Positions 1-6,517 of a stretch of DNA of 25,378 bases are shown one piece after another (positions within the stretch are counted from its first letter, which is position 1; every line of letters starts with the position of its first letter). The notes below the pieces were generated by a model. That model was not told the DNA's origin, did no database searches, and saw only the letters and a list, made by a program, of their open reading frames with translations. Source of the stretch: Cladosporium sp. IMV 00045 (Eukaryota > Ascomycota > Dothideomycetes > Cladosporiales > Cladosporiaceae); assembly GCA_001931905.2 (NCBI GenBank), contig MSJI02000100.1, forward strand, positions 1-25,378, given 5' to 3'. The position numbers were made by a program, and so were the translations under genes.

Positions 1-178
1 TACTAGTGGAATGCAGCAGATCGTTGAGAGCGTATGTGGCAGCCAAGCTTTCCGACTCCATACTTACCAATCCACCCCGAATCTGAACGGCGGAATATTG
101 TTATTAGATTTTAATCTTGGATGCCTGCATATTTCCCATAAACTTGCGAATTTCCTAATCCCTGTCAGTGGGAGCCAA
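1..178. other. Left-edge segment without a recognised gene
   Basis: No reading frame here resembles a family I recognise. The segment ends at an inverted repeat and a telomeric tract, so it may be the 3' end of a further element attached to the distal side of the reverse-transcriptase unit. That is inference from position only: I saw no clear similarity to the 3' ends of the two units to its right. Confidence 0.3.
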
Positions 179-225
179 GGTTACACCAGCGAAAACCCTA
201 ACCCTAAAGGCTCGCTGGTGTAACC
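179..225. repeat. 14-bp perfect inverted repeat around a telomeric tract
   Basis: The left arm at 179-192 (GGTTACACCAGCGA) and the right arm at 212-225 (TCGCTGGTGTAACC) are exact reverse complements. The 19-nt loop between them holds two CCCTAA units. The right arm lies in the open frame of the truncated reverse transcriptase, so the left arm is an inverted copy of the element's 5' edge across the telomeric junction. Either strand could fold into a hairpin with the telomeric repeat in the loop. Confidence 0.85.
193..207 (+). repeat. Interstitial telomeric tract 1, about 2 CCCTAA units
   Basis: Two CCCTAA units, the C-rich strand of the common fungal telomere repeat TTAGGG. They mark the 5' boundary of the reverse-transcriptase unit. 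The in-frame stops that close the open frame on its 5' side (199-201 and 205-207) are the TAA triplets of these repeats, so the truncation point coincides with the telomeric junction. Confidence 0.8.
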
Positions 226-1590
226 GGGTTATATAGCTGGTGTAACCAGGATATACCGGCTAAGGGACAGTTAGAATTCTGGATCAGTCCCAAAGTCCAG
301 AAGTTTCTAGAACAGTACACGGAACGAAACGACATACCGAAGTTCCATGGGATTCCCAAGATCCATAAAAATCCCTGGAAAATTAGGCCCATTGTGCCTA
401 TGCATTCGTATGTTACGTCCACAGTTTCGATCGTCGTACATCACCTCCTCCTCCCGATACAGAGATCCTTCTCTTGGATTTGTGAATCCAGTCGGGAGCT
501 GTGTGAAGAAGTGAGAAGCTTCAACGAGAGAGGCAAAAGTGTCCGATTGCATACGGGAGATGTTACAGCAATGTATACCTCTATCCCGTGGGTTGACTTC
601 AAGTTAGCCCTCGCGTCTGTCGTCCACTGGTTTCCAGCGTACCGAGGAAATACAGCCCTCGAGGCCTGGATTCTCAAGGCGGCGGAACTTCTCTGGAAAA
701 GCACGGTTTTTCAGTTAGGAAACAGACTTTGGCACCAAACGGACGGGGTTCCAATGGGCATCCATTGCGGCCCTGTGTTTGCCAATCTGTATCTGGCTTT
801 CTATGAAAAACAGTATCTTCAGGATTTCGACGGTCTTTACCGACGATATATTGATGATATCTTCGTCCTTCACCGCTCGGACGACGTGGTTGGCCATTTG
901 ATCCAGGCTCCTGGTATGGAAATTGTCTGGAATCACTCCGAAATTGGTTTGTCCTTTTTAGATGTTTGGTTTCACACTCATCTCGGGACATCGGAGATCT
1001 GCTTCCGACCTTACGAGAAGGCCGGAAACCACCACCAATACCTTCCCTGGGCCTCTTCTCATCCTCTCTCGGTGAAGAAAGGATTGGTCAAAGGAGAGCT
1101 CACTAGGGCAGCTGCTATCAGTAACCGACAGCCGTACTTTCTGACATGGAAAGCGAAATTCCTTTCGAGGCTTATCAGTCGGGGCTGGCCTAGACGCGCG
1201 GTTGGGAAATGGGGCAGGCAGGTGCACTGGCGCCAACGGTGCGCGAATTACGGAGCGGCGCGTGCCCGCACTGGCGACTTTATCATTGCCGTCTCAAAGT
1301 ACAACCCCGCGTGGAATCCTGTTTCTTCATCCGACATTTGGAGAAGCATGCTGAAGACATGGAGATTTTGCGCACCTGCGAACAAATCCCTGCCTTTCCC
1401 TCAGCATGTTATCATATCCAAAAAACGGACCAGATCTCTTTGGGATCTGGTTCGGTCGGTAAATCGAAGCCTGCTCCACACGGAGTATGAAGAAACAACC
1501 TTGGAAGATGTTCAGTCGAGCCTGTCAGCTATGGACGTTGACGACCTACCGTTTGAAGTACCAAGACCTCTGACTGGTCTGGCACGGTGA
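208..1590 (+). CDS. Penelope-like element reverse transcriptase, 5'-truncated
   Basis: This 460-codon open frame has no ATG before 400-402 and begins directly at the telomeric junction, so the N-terminus is missing. PLE motifs in order are FHGIPKIHK (343-369) with RPIV just after, GDVTAMYTSIP (from 556), QTDGVPMG (736-759), the catalytic YIDD (847-858), FLDVW (from about 955) and the PLE-specific YLPWASSHP with a following K. The thumb-like end carries TRSLWDLVRS, which resembles the 'nLrdlLVRS' segment of PLE proteins. No GIY-YIG endonuclease follows before the stop at 1588-1590. There are no internal stops or frameshifts, and all catalytic Asp residues are kept, in contrast to the decayed genes to the right. 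PLE reverse transcriptases are the closest known relatives of telomerase RT. Identification as PLE is strong; whether this copy is expressed cannot be told. Confidence 0.88.
   Translation, partial: RLAGVTGLYSWCNQDIPAKGQLEFWISPKVQKFLEQYTERNDIPKFHGIPKIHKNPWKIRPIVPMHSYVTSTVSIVVHHLLLPIQRSFSWICESSRELCEEVRSFNERGKSVRLHTGDVTAMYTSIPWVDFKLALASVVHWFPAYRGNTALEAWILKAAELLWKSTVFQLGNRLWHQTDGVPMGIHCGPVFANLYLAFYEKQYLQDFDGLYRRYIDDIFVLHRSDDVVGHLIQAPGMEIVWNHSEIGLSFLDVWFHTHLGTSEICFRPYEKAGNHHQYLPWASSHPLSVKKGLVKGELTRAAAISNRQPYFLTWKAKFLSRLISRGWPRRAVGKWGRQVHWRQRCANYGAARARTGDFIIAVSKYNPAWNPVSSSDIWRSMLKTWRFCAPANKSLPFPQHVIISKKRTRSLWDLVRSVNRSLLHTEYEETTLEDVQSSLSAMDVDDLPFEVPRPLTGLAR
214..257 (+). repeat. Imperfect 22-bp tandem duplication
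   Basis: Two adjacent 22-nt copies begin with GCTGGTGTAACC (214-235 and 236-257). They share the first 12 bases and then diverge slightly around a common GG..ATATA core. They lie at the extreme 5' edge of the element unit, overlapping the right arm of the inverted repeat. They may be a trace of template slippage when cDNA synthesis stopped. Confidence 0.6.
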
Positions 1591-2070
1591 CAAGATCTGC
1601 TTTACGGAAGCTCCCCCTTCGGGCGGGAGGCCCCTAGGACAAAGGGGTCAAAGTACGAATTGCAGTGTATCGTCAACTTGGATCCGCGACCAGTGCAGGG
1701 GTGTGGCGAGGTGACGTCCTGACCACCTCCGCCGGGTCTTTTGCAGTGAGGGGGAGTGACGCGCTAGTACTGGGAGAGTCTGGTGGTTGAGTCCAGCTCT
1801 TTCGGGAAGATCTCTCTCGAGCAGCTAGCGGTCAAGCTCATTGCGAGCCTCTGAAGTTAGTTCTTCCCTCTTCTGTAGGACTCGGTCGCGGCCCTTGTCT
1901 GCCTCTGATCCACACCGTCTGAATCATACCTCAGGACACGAGGGTGGGTACGGGTGTGGTGTATCGTCAACAGAGGATGCTCTCAAAGGATGGAAGTTAA
2001 TGGCTTTGGTTATAGTTGGCCCGATAGAGGGAGTTTCGCACATTTGTTTGTTAGCGAGTTCAGTTGGTTC
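1591..2070 (+). other. Element 3' untranslated region with strong hairpins
   Basis: There is no convincing coding frame. Three predicted RNA hairpins lie just after the RT stop. The first, 1611-1629, has a CUCCC-CC stem closed by a UUCG tetraloop and one bulged C. The second, 1631-1647, has a CCCCU/AGGGG stem. The third, 1705-1733, has GAGGUG/CACCUC extended by three pairs past a bulge. Such structure is expected where an RT must recognise its own RNA, but that function is inference. Confidence 0.5.
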
Positions 2071-2130
2071 AAAACCCCAACCCAAACCCTAACCTAAGCA
2101 ATAAGCGCCTAACCCCAACCCTAACCCTAA
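2071..2130 (+). repeat. Interstitial telomeric tracts 2 and 3, degenerate
   Basis: Two clusters of CCCTAA-type units separated by about a dozen bases. The first (2073-2096) contains variants CCCCAA and CCCAAA; the second (2109-2130) contains CCCCAA followed by two perfect CCCTAA units. The orientation matches tract 1. They separate the 3' end of the reverse-transcriptase unit from the next short unit. Confidence 0.8.
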
Positions 2131-2480
2131 TCTATCGGTTACTTGGTTTCGGCGCCAAATCATTGGCTCACATTCATCGCAGAACAGGTGAGCCTGGTTT
2201 GGTTCTTCCCTTCGCATCCAGTAGAATATTGCAAGAATTCTGCTAACTCTCATTCAGGTAGCAGGCGCTTGCTGATGCATGCGTAGGCGGTTACCTGCAT
2301 GACATGTGAAGGGTCATGGCGCTTCTTGGCTACCATGACAAGGTATAAGAGACTGTATATTTCTCCCTGATGAGTTCTTCTTTTTTCTGCAAGGGAACGA
2401 AAGGTCTTCACTTTGTGAGATCTCGGTTTTTGTTTTACTTGCAGTATTTAAGTCTGTATCCAGCACATCTTTTGTCTTCT
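2131..2480 (+). mobile_element. Short non-coding unit bounded by telomeric repeats, probable truncated or non-autonomous PLE
   Basis: About 350 nt lie between telomeric tracts 3 and 4, with no recognisable protein. The unit contains a hammerhead-like fold in the same sense as the upstream RT. PLEs commonly carry hammerhead motifs in their terminal regions, so I infer a strongly 5'-truncated or non-autonomous PLE copy. Sequence similarity to the 3' part of the neighbouring unit is not obvious, so it may belong to another family. Confidence 0.5.
2352..2445 (+). ncRNA. Candidate type I hammerhead ribozyme
   Basis: The conserved core is complete: CUGAUGA at 2367-2373 and GAAA at 2399-2402, joined by stem II (2374-2379 with 2393-2398; GUUC/GAAC plus two G-U pairs, 13-nt loop). 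Stem III pairs 2402-2407 with 2418-2423 and continues after a bulged U as CAC/GUG over a UUU loop. It places U16.1 at 2423 and C17 at 2424, so cleavage would follow 2424. Stem I is the weak part: two G-C pairs next to the core (2365-2366 with 2425-2426), a large internal loop, then a six-pair outer helix (2352-2357 with 2440-2445). Hammerheads are a known feature of PLEs. The fold was done by hand. Confidence 0.5.
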
Positions 2481-2507
2481 CTAACCCTAACCCTAACCCT
2501 AACCCTT
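2481..2507 (+). repeat. Interstitial telomeric tract 4, about 4 CCCTAA units
   Basis: The longest tract in the window: CTAA followed by nearly four uninterrupted CCCTAA units, same orientation as the others. It is the innermost tract and probably marks the old chromosome end to which the retroelement units were added. Confidence 0.9.
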
Positions 2508-2588
2508 GACGGGAATGGTTTCGGAGATGCTGCGTGCCAGATCAACTGTGGACCTTCCTGCAACTGTGACTAGGTTTTCGAGAAATAT

Positions 2589-2715
2589 TCAGAATTCTCC
2601 ATAATAAATCTGATACACTATATGCCCAGCCAGAGTTATCACCTCATTGTCATCCATATCAAGCAGTAACTGTACCACATCGGTGTTGCCTGCTAGTGTA
2701 GCAGCGTGAAGCACA
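2589..2715 (-). pseudogene. Ankyrin-repeat gene fragment
   Basis: On the minus strand, translation from about 2712 gives LHAATLAGNTDVVQLLLD, a good match to the first part of an ankyrin repeat (the 'LHxAAxxGhxxvvxlLLd' pattern). About 20 more residues lead to a stop at 2589-2591. No further repeats or start codon are visible, so this is a remnant of a larger ankyrin protein. It lies just inside the innermost telomeric tract. Confidence 0.45.
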
Positions 2716-2781
2716 ACCAATACCTACCCATAGTCTTAAATCGCCTTAGATATGAAACTCCAGTTCTGTCGCTGTTCCCAT

Positions 2782-3735
2782 TCATCGACGCTTCCTAGCT
2801 CTGGGCATTCGTTCAACTGCCATCAGGTCAGCGTACCTCCTTTGGTTCCATCTGTTTATGGGCTGACATACCTGGCTCGGGTCAATCTCAGTTGGGTCAT
2901 CACGTGCTTCGTATGCGCACTCATTGAAGTATGCCCAGTTGTCATCCAATTCCGCCTTCAAGCCTTCAGGAAGAGCAATATTTGGTTCTCCGGCTGGTAA
3001 AGTTGCGTGTCCTCCCAACAGACCAGTGACCTTGGCAAAGAATTCTACCTTCTCCTCTAGAAACATCCATTGGCAATAGGCTACAAGATGCTTGCCAGGA
3101 GCATCATTGAGCAGAGCCTTAACAAGGGGACGAGCTTCTTCGTCTGGAGCGATCAAGGGCAAGCTTCAAATCGCGCTTAACGCTACTTGCAAATATTACG
3201 AAGTCGTTGTCCTGCAGCAGAAGTTGTTACTGCGTGCGTTCCATATGGATGAGGTATTACCTACACGTCTAGGCTGGACGAGTGGATTGCTAAGGTAAGC
3301 TGAAAGCCGCTCGTCTTTGCCCATAGGTCTGGATGAGCTTTCTCAACATACTCGGCGACCTGAGATTTGAAGTCGAAGTGAAAGACGTGGGTGTACTTTC
3401 CACGAGACCACTTCGAGCAGTTAGGCAGACTGAATAACACCTACCGTTACAAAGAAGGAGATCTTGAAGCAGCATCAATGGCGTTGATTAGTTGATGCTT
3501 CTCAGCACGCGCAGCCCGCAAGTTCAAAGACTCGCCTCGGGCGGGTTTTGCAGTGTTTGCTGGGTCTCCGTAAATGCCCCAAAAGTCGGTAACGATTAAG
3601 ATTGCCTACAAGTCCGCGAAGTCTACGATGAGAGAGACCTTCCATCATTCAAATCAGCCGTAACGACCGCTATATCACGACATGCGAGCTTTAGAGCTTT
3701 ATCGCTGTTGAAATTGCGCGTTACACTGCGCTCTA
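2782..3735 (-). pseudogene. NmrA-like NAD(P)-binding protein, broken by frameshifts and stops
   Basis: Pieces of one NmrA-family protein occur in order on the minus strand but in different frames. From about 3727 comes SVTRNFNSDKALKL, followed by VVTADLND. Then come VTDFWGIYGDP (about 3560-3590), a segment with KYTHVFHFDFKS and KAHPDLWAKTS (about 3330-3400), and finally a 126-codon frame at 3162-2782 with PLIAPDEEARPLVKALL and LDDNWAYFNE. NmrA-like proteins are Rossmann-fold redox sensors or atypical dehydrogenases. The N-terminal GxxGxxG dinucleotide-binding segment is missing, and several stops and frameshifts separate the pieces, so the gene is dead. Its decay matches the damaged transporter next to it. 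Confidence 0.75.
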
Positions 3736-4036
3736 TACCAAGGCAGAATCGCTCGAAATTGCGAATTTGACCACAGAACAGGGGCGGCTCAGGAATGTCA
3801 AAGTCATGCGATTCCTCGGCATTCGTGATATTGCAGCGGCAGATGCCATTTTCTGGTTCCATTAGGAGAGAGATCAAGAAGCTACTGGTGTGATTCTGAC
3901 TCCATCGACTCTGATCACTTATGTGCGACAGACACATGAATTGCAGCAAAGGGTCTTGGCCCAAGAGGCTTCGATAACGGCACTTGGATAGTAGCAATGG
4001 CGTTCGTCGGATCAGGGCTTGTTCAATCGTAGCCAC

Positions 4037-4669
4037 GTTACGATCCGGTTCTAGGTCGTTGTTCCCCCAAACTTCCGCAATATATCTGCACGCTAGACTT
4101 GACTTATATCGACCGGACTGAGACGATCAGGCTCCACGATAAAGCTCGAGGTGTGGACATCATCAAGCAATAGAATCACAAAAGGTGATGAAGAAGGCTA
4201 CTACATCCCAATGAAATTGTTATCGTTACGCGATGGGAGCGCCAACTTTTTCCCAGCGTCGCCGAGCAAAGTCTCCGCTGGCAGTCAACCTCTCACGCAG
4301 GGAGATTTCGGTGTAGTAGACAAACGCCCAGCCCACAAGACGTCTAACATCGGCTCGGCGATCTCATTTGCATTTCAACCTAAATGCGACGCAGACTCAA
4401 GACCTTGTCCGTGGATCGTGAGTGCAAAGTATCTGAGATCCGTGAAGCTACCTCAGAAACCCCAAGGCGGAAGGCATGCCTTCCAAGGCGGGCGGCCACC
4501 TAGGTGTCCTCGAATGACCGCTAAAGTCACAAGCCAGTCATGATTGAGTTGGCAGTCCTGTTTCTTATAGAGCCTTTGCTCTTCTGTGAGATTTCTGGGT
4601 GTCTTTTTCACTCAGGGTCTCTGACTCCCGACGTTTGACGAAATATCGTATTATCGGCGCTTCAAGAAA
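4037..4669. other. Gap without a recognised gene
   Basis: A 130-codon plus-strand frame (4151-4543) is the longest opening, but its translation matches no family I know and shows no membrane segment or signal peptide. A 16-bp palindrome, GGAAGGCATGCCTTCC, lies inside it near 4467-4482. The right part would be the promoter of the transporter that follows. I do not call a gene here. Confidence 0.4.
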
Positions 4670-6517
4670 ATGGCACCACCCGAAGTGCTTGACAGTGCGT
4701 TGCACAAAAGGCAGCAGTTGATGGGCGCATCTGGCCCATGGGCAGTCCTCAAAACTTCAGGGTTTTCCTCATCGCAGCTTTCGCGTGTCTGGGAGGGTTA
4801 CTCTATGGATACAATCAGGGCATGTTCAGCGGCATTCTTGTGATGCCAGCGTCCGAAAGGCGTAAGTATTTCGCGAGCGTCTGGCGGATAGTGTTGACGA
4901 ATTGCAGAGATGGGGGGCTACATCGACAATCCAACGAACCTGGGCTGGCTCACCTCAATCATGGAGATAGGATCCTACTTGGGAGCGATTTTGTCAGGGT
5001 TCATCGCGGAAGTTCTCTCTCGGAAGTATGGTATACTCATTCCAACGACGGTGTTTCTCCTCGGTGTTATCATTCAAGTCACAGCGATAGCATAGTCCTA
5101 CCAGGTGGTCCTCGCGGGCCGTTTCATTACTGGAATTGGTGTCGGTAGTTTGAGCATGATCGTTCCACTCTACAATTGTGAGGTGGCTCCACCTGAGGTT
5201 CGAGGTGCTTTAGTAGGTCTGCAACAGTTGGCCATTACTTTTGGAATCATGATCAGCTACTGGATCAATTACGGCAAGCAATATATTGGTAAAATTGACG
5301 AAGACCAATCTAATGCAGCCTGGCTGATCCCAATCTGCCTGCAAATCGCCCCAGGTGTGATACTACTCGTGGGCATGTTCTTCATGCCATTCTCACCTCG
5401 CTGGCTCGTACACCATGGAAGAGAAGAAGAGGCACGCAAGGTTCTGGCTTCGCTCCGAGGACTATCAGAAGATGATGAGCTCGTCAATGTCGAGTTCCTG
5501 GAAATCAAGGCAGACTCGCTGCTCGAAAGGCGCAGCCTGGCTGAGAAGTTCCCTAAACTCCAAGCGCAGACCGCCTGGAACGTCTTCAAATTGCAGTTTA
5601 TTGCAATCGGATCACTTATCAAGACTAAGGCCATGTTCAAGTGTGTCATCTGTGGTACGGTCACAATGTTCTTCCAACAATGGTCCGAAATCAACGCGAT
5701 CTTGTACTACGCGCCGATCCTATTCTCTCAGCTTGGACTCGGCGACAACGAGACAAGTCTGCTGGCGACAGGAGTTGTTGGTATCGTTATGTTCATTGCT
5801 GTAAAGGTCAAATGTCTAACGCATTGCTGTGACCTCACTAACTCGACCAGACCATTCCGGCTGTACTCTACATTGACAAGGTGGGAAGGAAGCCATTACT
5901 GATAGTAGGAGGTAAAGTGGGCTCGTTGAACTATTCCATCGTATCGGTGTACTCTGACAAATGATTTCTGGACAGCTATCGGCATGGCAACATGCCATAT
6001 TACCGTGGCGATCATCTTAGCGCTGAGAAAAGGCAACTTTAATAACGCATAGGCGGCTAGTTAGGCAGCTATGGCAATGATTTGGCTTTTCGTCGTTAAT
6101 TTTGGCTACTTCTAGGGCCCTTGCGCTTGGATACTCATTGTAGAGATCTGGCCTATCTCGATAAGACCGTATGGTGTCGCACTCTCAGTCTCTAGTAACT
6201 GGATGACCAACTTCATGTGAGTGAGAGTATTGCGAAGCCGCTTCTAGACTCTATCTGATACACAAATAGCGTCGGCCAGGTCACTCCGGACATGTTGGAG
6301 AATATCACCTATGGCACATACATCCTATTCGGCCTCCTGACTTATCTCGGTGCAGCCTTCATTTTCTTCGTAGTACTAGACACTAAGCGCCTGTCGCTCG
6401 AGGAAATGGTAGGCTTACTCGGTGTATCTTTGCGAGGTTGCACTTGTTAATGATTGACAGGATGTCATCATTGGGTCAAAGGGTGCCGCATTTGCTGATT
6501 TCGAGCGTATGAAATAA
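4670..6517 (+). pseudogene. MFS monosaccharide transporter, inactivated by RIP-like stops and a frameshift
   Basis: A near full-length hexose-type transporter. Exons are 4670-4861, 4908-5800, 5851-5911, 5976-6216, 6270-6408 and 6461-6517, and all five introns keep GT..AG ends and join family motifs correctly (for example MFIA|TIPAVLYIDKVGRK and NFI|VGQVTPDML). Motifs include GGLLYGYNQG, GRFITGIGVG, PFSPRW, VGRKP and DTKRLSLEEM (usual PETKR altered). The gene is broken by TAG stops at 5093-5095, 6050-6052, 6062-6064 and 6113-6115. It also has a one-base loss in an A run at 4751-4754, where five As would restore the frame. By family alignment the stops replace CAG or TGG codons, that is CA to TA and TG to TA changes, the signature of repeat-induced point mutation. 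It converges on the GMC oxidoreductase gene. Confidence 0.85.

Follow-up and report, generated by a model that had tools for sequence, protein, structure and literature searches.

A broken, endonuclease-lacking Penelope-like reverse transcriptase gene between a high-copy repeat and telomere-like arrays in a fungal genome

The window, as the stretch of DNA analyzed here is called, comprises contig C100 in full (25,378 bp) in an assembly of 49,867,185 bases in 954 contigs. It harbours most of a reverse transcriptase (RT) gene of the Penelope-like element (PLE) type, preceded by the terminal part of a high-copy repeat to which it is unrelated and followed by two telomere-like arrays (Table 1). 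Between the second array and a sugar-transporter-like gene (2507-4700) only short frames of 126-137 aa are present.

Table 1 Features of the window around the Penelope-like RT gene
Feature	Positions	Strand	Basis
Terminal stretch of unrelated high-copy repeat, TTAGA end (on +) at 275	1-275	-	Genome matches
14-bp perfect inverted repeat (179-192 / 212-225) flanking CCCTAACCCTAA (196-207), inside the repeat	179-225	.	
PLE RT gene, 3' two-thirds: last 438 residues and stop	274-1590	+	Homology to full-length relatives
HGIPKIHK motif	346-369	+	Translation
QTDGVPMG motif	736-759	+	Translation
YIDD catalytic motif	847-858	+	Translation
Presumed PLE 3' untranslated region	1591-2072	+	Self-match only in assembly
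Degenerate CCCTAA-type repeats, presumed PLE 3' end	2073-2130	+	Repeat scan
Spacer separating the two telomere-like arrays, self-match only in assembly	2131-2480	+	
Exact interstitial telomeric array (CTAACC)4.3	2481-2506	+	Repeat scan

The RT frame is open as far as its stop codon at 1588-1590. Frame 1 is open from position 208, yet homology to PLEs starts only at the codon 274-276, which spans the boundary between repeat and RT; position 193, where a preliminary description of this DNA had placed the start of the element, falls inside the repeat. The core of PLE-type RTs is made up of DKG/DKN, PKIHK, QxxGxxMG and YIDD blocks. The last three blocks were recovered in the window protein; the DKN block is found in the related protein P0001, within the portion absent from the window copy. 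HGIPKIHK, QTDGVPMG and YIDD, which we take to be PLE RT motifs, were located in the open frame as originally described, and Pfam RVT_1 was detected in the window protein with an E-value of 4.7e-7 (30.2 bits, cut-off 29.6). A PDB search with the window protein alone returned mostly RTs at a best E-value of 0.074. The same search with profile A1 returned 30 chains up to E=1; RTs ranked first (best 1e-8), telomerases reached 4.5e-6, and the weakest chains were unrelated. P0001 (650 aa) was the closest protein in the homology search, with 98 % identity over 99 %. The two differ at 9 of the 440 residues encoded from position 268 on, and the first two of these differences are repeat-encoded. The N-terminal 212 residues of P0001 are absent from the window copy, which resumes at codon 213. 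When this N-terminus was searched against the assembly, only its 16-residue overlap in the window and a weak match in C761 (E=5.1) were found. Judged from its sequence, the window gene is a genuine Penelope-like RT gene that has lost its 5' part.

The RT had been described as lacking an endonuclease, and indeed no Pfam match to GIY-YIG was found in the window protein. The occurrence of this domain in fuller-length relatives, named beforehand as evidence against the description, was looked for: Pfam detected it in 0 of 27 aligned relatives, 26 of which contain RVT_1. The homology search yielded 91 relatives and a profile search 752, the best 120 of which were listed. PF01541, the GIY-YIG accession, is missing from the precomputed domains of the 91 and of these best 120; the precomputed domains include two unnamed accessions, PF26215 and PF28514. 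Furthermore, none of 210 proteins, 6 of them non-PLE, contains a GIY..YIG-like pattern.

The closest relatives, P0001-P0069, share 50-98 % identity with the window protein. Most of them (63 of 69) are at least 600 aa long, whereas the window copy is without the 212 N-terminal residues counted on P0001. The sole named protein among them is P0047, M3J09_012137 of Ascochyta lentis. A quick maximum-likelihood tree combined the window with 66 proteins selected from both searches for relatives; its 67 rows are free of Athena, Coprina and any endonuclease-bearing PLE reference (Penelope, Neptune). In this tree P0001 and the window form a pair (support 100), and both belong to a clade of 33 rows, mostly proteins of ~650 aa and including P0047 (SH-aLRT 100). 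The 31 members of P0001-P0069 included in the tree form this one clade together with the window and P0071. Seven proteins of ~950 aa and P0072 are its nearest neighbour, and P0074 of Tulasnella is more distant. Some outer branches are very long, which carries a long-branch warning and makes the placement of those rows unsure. Among P0105-P0140 there is a second endonuclease-less PLE-type group, of proteins of ~950 aa whose N-terminal part is long, adjoining the 650-aa clade. For 58 of the 63 close relatives of at least 600 aa the longest contig measures 2.9-4.6 kb, and the median over all 63 is 3,937. Such sizes hint faintly at multi-copy units of ~4 kb, short contigs being common in such data.

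Downstream of the RT gene, eight CCCTAA units (at most 1 mismatch) start within 60 bp in the first array, against a maximum of 4 on the + strand in 200 random sequences matched in length and dinucleotide composition. The exact sequence CCCTAACCCTAA occurs at 4 window positions, 3 of which lie beyond the 3' end of the RT; it occurs in 0 of the 200 random sequences on either strand. Both 3' arrays show the expected strand and lie no farther than ~900 bp from the stop codon of the RT. The presence of C-rich repeats 3' of the RT, as first reported, was thus borne out by two arrays that are denser than in the 200 random sequences. An RT in sense toward C-rich 3' repeats would fit priming at the 3' end of a TTAGGG strand. 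These C-rich-sense repeats at the 3' junction were seen at one locus, and the exact 3' end of the element is presumed. Elsewhere in the assembly, the region 1590-2075 has no match.

The exact telomeric 18-mer is found at four places in the assembly: in the window, in C723 and in C742, all non-terminal, and at the end of C890. A control, the 18-mer read backwards, likewise gave 4 matches. Since the reversed control is equally frequent, a lone interstitial 18-mer such as those of C723 and C742 is weak evidence, and the interstitial-repeat argument for a chromosome-end origin is slightly weakened. The short interstitial arrays inside these two contigs (C723:18231-18248 and C742:20335-20352) are without a PLE RT match.

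Hammerhead ribozymes have been reported for PLEs. In the spacer between the two arrays a faint candidate for a hammerhead-like core with stems was noticed at ~2355-2438. A search of positions 1-3000 against Rfam gave two matches (E-values 5.7 and 9.3), neither of them a ribozyme. A motif scan counting both strands, with thresholds chosen after the site was seen, found 1 site in the window, as against 4 across 10.15 Mb of random sequence and none across the loci examined (250,928 bases). Free folding favours another hairpin (z -0.58), and a hammerhead ribozyme at this place is not claimed.

The 5' side of the RT gene is of a different nature. A search of the genome with positions 1-260 gave 41 matches including the window, 22 of which, window included, are at full score. 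In all of the first 10 other loci compared, identity runs up to TTAGA (275) and divergence follows, as judged by eye. In a further set of loci, 26 repeat ends with at most 3 mismatches were found; the last 18 bases are exact in 21 of them (window included) and show 1-3 mismatches in 5. At least one copy, C553:26333-26556, extends only to 223 and so is without the fixed end, and the flanks of the C333 and C714 copies are themselves related repeats. CCCTAACCCTAA and the bases following it are present in 18 of the 20 loci L027-L046, the exceptions being a 63-bp copy and the C890 telomere. Because this sequence is internal to the repeat, the supposed 5' telomeric junction is not a PLE junction. 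The preliminary description had CCCTAA repeats abutting both ends of the element; this stands for the 3' end, where arrays were found, and fails for the 5' end, where the motif belongs to the 41-match repeat. Likewise, of the features of orientation said to match chromosome-end priming, the sense of the gene and the C-rich 3' repeats were upheld. The truncation side was not: the RT gene breaks off where it meets an unrelated repeat (275/276), which leaves a telomere-side truncation unsupported. In this copy the 5' truncation adjoins that repeat and not telomeric repeats.

In 29 of the 41 matches (window included) the inner side of the repeat lies within 500 bp of a contig end. Contig ends are expected beside such a sequence, as high-copy repeats break assemblies. 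Another 11 matches are located deeper inside contigs, and one (C942) was unplaced. Seven of the 11 have an N run directly at the inner side, with non-repeat sequence past the gap in 4 (C656, C25, C862 and C888). Among 16 inner ends inspected, 7 are N runs and the others include real truncations. Truncated copies are arranged head-to-tail at C950, C440, C339 and C361. The copy at C950:374-2609 contains a decayed frame on the opposite strand, leading away from the TTAGA end, and the frame with the fewest stops has 31 of them against 45-85. Six relatives of the decayed protein were found (324-863 aa). OrsD exceeds the Pfam cut-off in 3 of these and a weaker C2H2 zinc-finger was detected in 5, while Pfam on the read-through piece itself gave an unrelated family at a best E-value of 0.016. 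Fungal telomere-linked helicases often carry an OrsD/zinc-finger-type N-terminal region, and the hallmark of TLH elements is a RecQ-type helicase domain. No such helicase domain was found in the six scanned relatives, and the remainder of the repeat is missing from the assembly. As the coding body is scarce, the tie between the OrsD protein and the repeat end rests on C950 and partly on C553 and C440; L036:374-1640 matches itself alone and L033:5550-6150 matches three places.

Known classes of mobile DNA were considered for the repeat. A LINE 3' end, with one end fixed and the other variable, was set aside with the coding frame being on the opposite strand, and a canonical Helitron was likewise set aside since the base outside TTAGA varies. 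The repeat ends inspected offered no convincing case of a target-site duplication. We regard it as very improbable that the repeat is a mobile telomere-related element, with CCCTAA in a hairpin loop, a fixed end and head-to-tail stacking, that may join broken or eroded chromosome ends, PLE-made ones included.

Ten alignments of positions 1-275 to seven other loci were compared for repeat-induced point mutation (RIP), with the window as unmutated reference. In six of them, with 2, 14, 17, 27, 28 and 9 differences, every change is a C>T preceding A or a G>A following T. Changes are of mixed types at L033 and L034, where C>T or G>A account for 26 of 32 and 29 of 65, respectively; the second match in L040 has 2 differences, neither of this kind, and that in L039 has none. 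The substitution pattern in the repeat copies reads as the signature of RIP. The 22 full-score matches coexist with heavily RIP-mutated ones. The RIP signature supports a filamentous ascomycete as host, and together with the Ascochyta lentis relative it makes the host named in the preliminary description very probable.

The description had also raised the question of further telomeric copies and a candidate role in telomere maintenance, and neither is supported. Searches with three query proteins detected one PLE RT copy in the 954 contigs, the one lacking its N-terminal part, and the 3' untranslated region matches itself only. Copies may be missed, as the RT search scores best candidates only and the assembly is fragmentary, with most chromosome ends missing. 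A telomerase RNA-binding domain is encoded at C646 (131.9 bits, cut-off 25). The terminus of C890 consists of TTAGGG repeats; the telomeric 24-mer occurs nowhere else in the assembly (control 0), and at this sole contig end with a telomeric array no PLE match was found. Retroelement-assisted telomere maintenance is thus not supported by this genome. Viral contigs gave 4 pattern matches and no relative.

The explanation preferred here, with a probability of roughly 0.8, is that the window holds a single-copy, broken relic of an endonuclease-lacking PLE, primed at a chromosome end and later cut by the high-copy repeat, in a fungus with telomerase. Most likely, as sense and repeat orientation suggest, an exposed TTAGGG strand would have offered its 3' end as primer for reverse transcription of the PLE RNA, so that CCCTAA-type repeats came to lie on the 3' side of the element. 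The repeat would later have been inserted or joined at RT codon 213. Junction 275/276, a sharp boundary, is the site of the 5' loss, and either insertion or end-joining may have produced it. In this fungus a telomerase gene is present, as is at least one telomere of the ordinary TTAGGG type. Against this explanation it counts that the telomeric origin depends on the repeats of one locus, the nearer array being degenerate, that the reversed 18-mer is as frequent as the telomeric one, that the C553 copy of the repeat is short of the fixed end, and that the missing 5' RT part could sit in contigs absent from the assembly. The original view, in which a PLE truncated on its 5' side was added at a chromosome terminus, capped by telomerase and involved in retroelement-assisted telomere maintenance, agrees with the RT sense and the 3' repeats, and the open frame, which departs from a full-length relative at 9 of 440 residues, points to a young copy. 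Against it stand the 5' CCCTAA as part of the 41-match repeat, the single PLE copy detected, the telomerase domain and the lack of a PLE match at the sole telomere found, and this view is extremely unlikely to be right.

It is unlikely, if worth keeping in mind, that the repeat is a subtelomeric block which heals broken or eroded ends and was added to an already eroded PLE instead of being inserted into it. The 29 matches close to contig ends, the head-to-tail truncated copies at four contigs and the failure to find the N-terminal RT part in the assembly speak for such a block, but contig ends are expected at any assembly-breaking repeat, and 11 matches lie deeper in contigs, 4 of them with non-repeat sequence past the N gap. 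The RT might also have come to lie beside interstitial telomere-like repeats by chance, without priming at a chromosome end. Internal exact 18-mers at C723 and C742, the 4 matches of the reversed control and the lack of PLE RT matches outside the window are in line with this. The two expected-strand arrays, which lie no farther than ~900 bp from the RT stop and exceed the 200 random sequences in density, argue against it, as does a related ascomycete family with the same arrangement in the available text of its report (PMC4522978), and a chance neighbourhood is quite improbable.

Indeed, endonuclease-lacking telomeric PLEs are already known, in ascomycetes too, as a putative family was described in the available text of that report. 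In 2014, telomere-localised, endonuclease-lacking elements of Mycosphaerella graminicola were assigned to putative PLE family 4 (PMC4522978). According to the same text, this family comprises 34 full-length (3.4-3.5 kb) and 49 truncated elements, full-length ones being located on 26 of 41 chromosome ends, and carries telomeric hexamers at a 3' end that faces away from the telomere (PMC4522978). By description, the window element resembles this family in its filamentous ascomycete host, the absence of an endonuclease and the telomere-type hexamers at its presumed 3' end, but differs from it in that one broken copy was found here (PMC4522978). In the sections available, Macrophomina phaseolina is reported with 109 Penelope elements in one isolate and 0 in the other (PMC6829926), Agaricus bisporus is mentioned for telomere-linked PLEs (PMC7473861), and the corresponding sections of PMC8022934 and PMC8381367 contain nothing on PLEs. 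The non-LTR telomeric elements FoTeR and MoTeR of filamentous ascomycetes have RT and REL domains and the 5' end toward the terminus, as given in the portion available (PMC12857005). By description, they resemble the window PLE, itself a putative telomeric element, as telomere-associated retroelements of filamentous ascomycetes whose 5' end faces the terminus, but their assignment to the non-LTR elements and their RT and REL domains set them apart (PMC12857005). Outside the ascomycetes described above, Athena has, in the text available, an RT without endonuclease and telomeric repeats on the 3' side (PMC5537684).

The window element shares, by description, an endonuclease-less RT and telomere-like repeats on the 3' side with Athena and Coprina. 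Coprina combines an endonuclease-less RT with telomeric repeats on the 3' side, and both were reportedly presented as endonuclease-deficient PLEs by Gladyshev and Arkhipova in 2007. The window element is a broken member of a kind of PLE known from ascomycete telomeres since 2014. Its apparent 5' telomere junction is an illusion created by a repeat with an internal CCCTAA, and recognizing this corrects an attractive but unsupported claim. Of the PLE and the high-copy repeat, less is understood about the repeat. If it is a subtelomeric element that joins to chromosome ends, it would represent a further route for rebuilding fungal chromosome ends, besides telomerase and retroelements.
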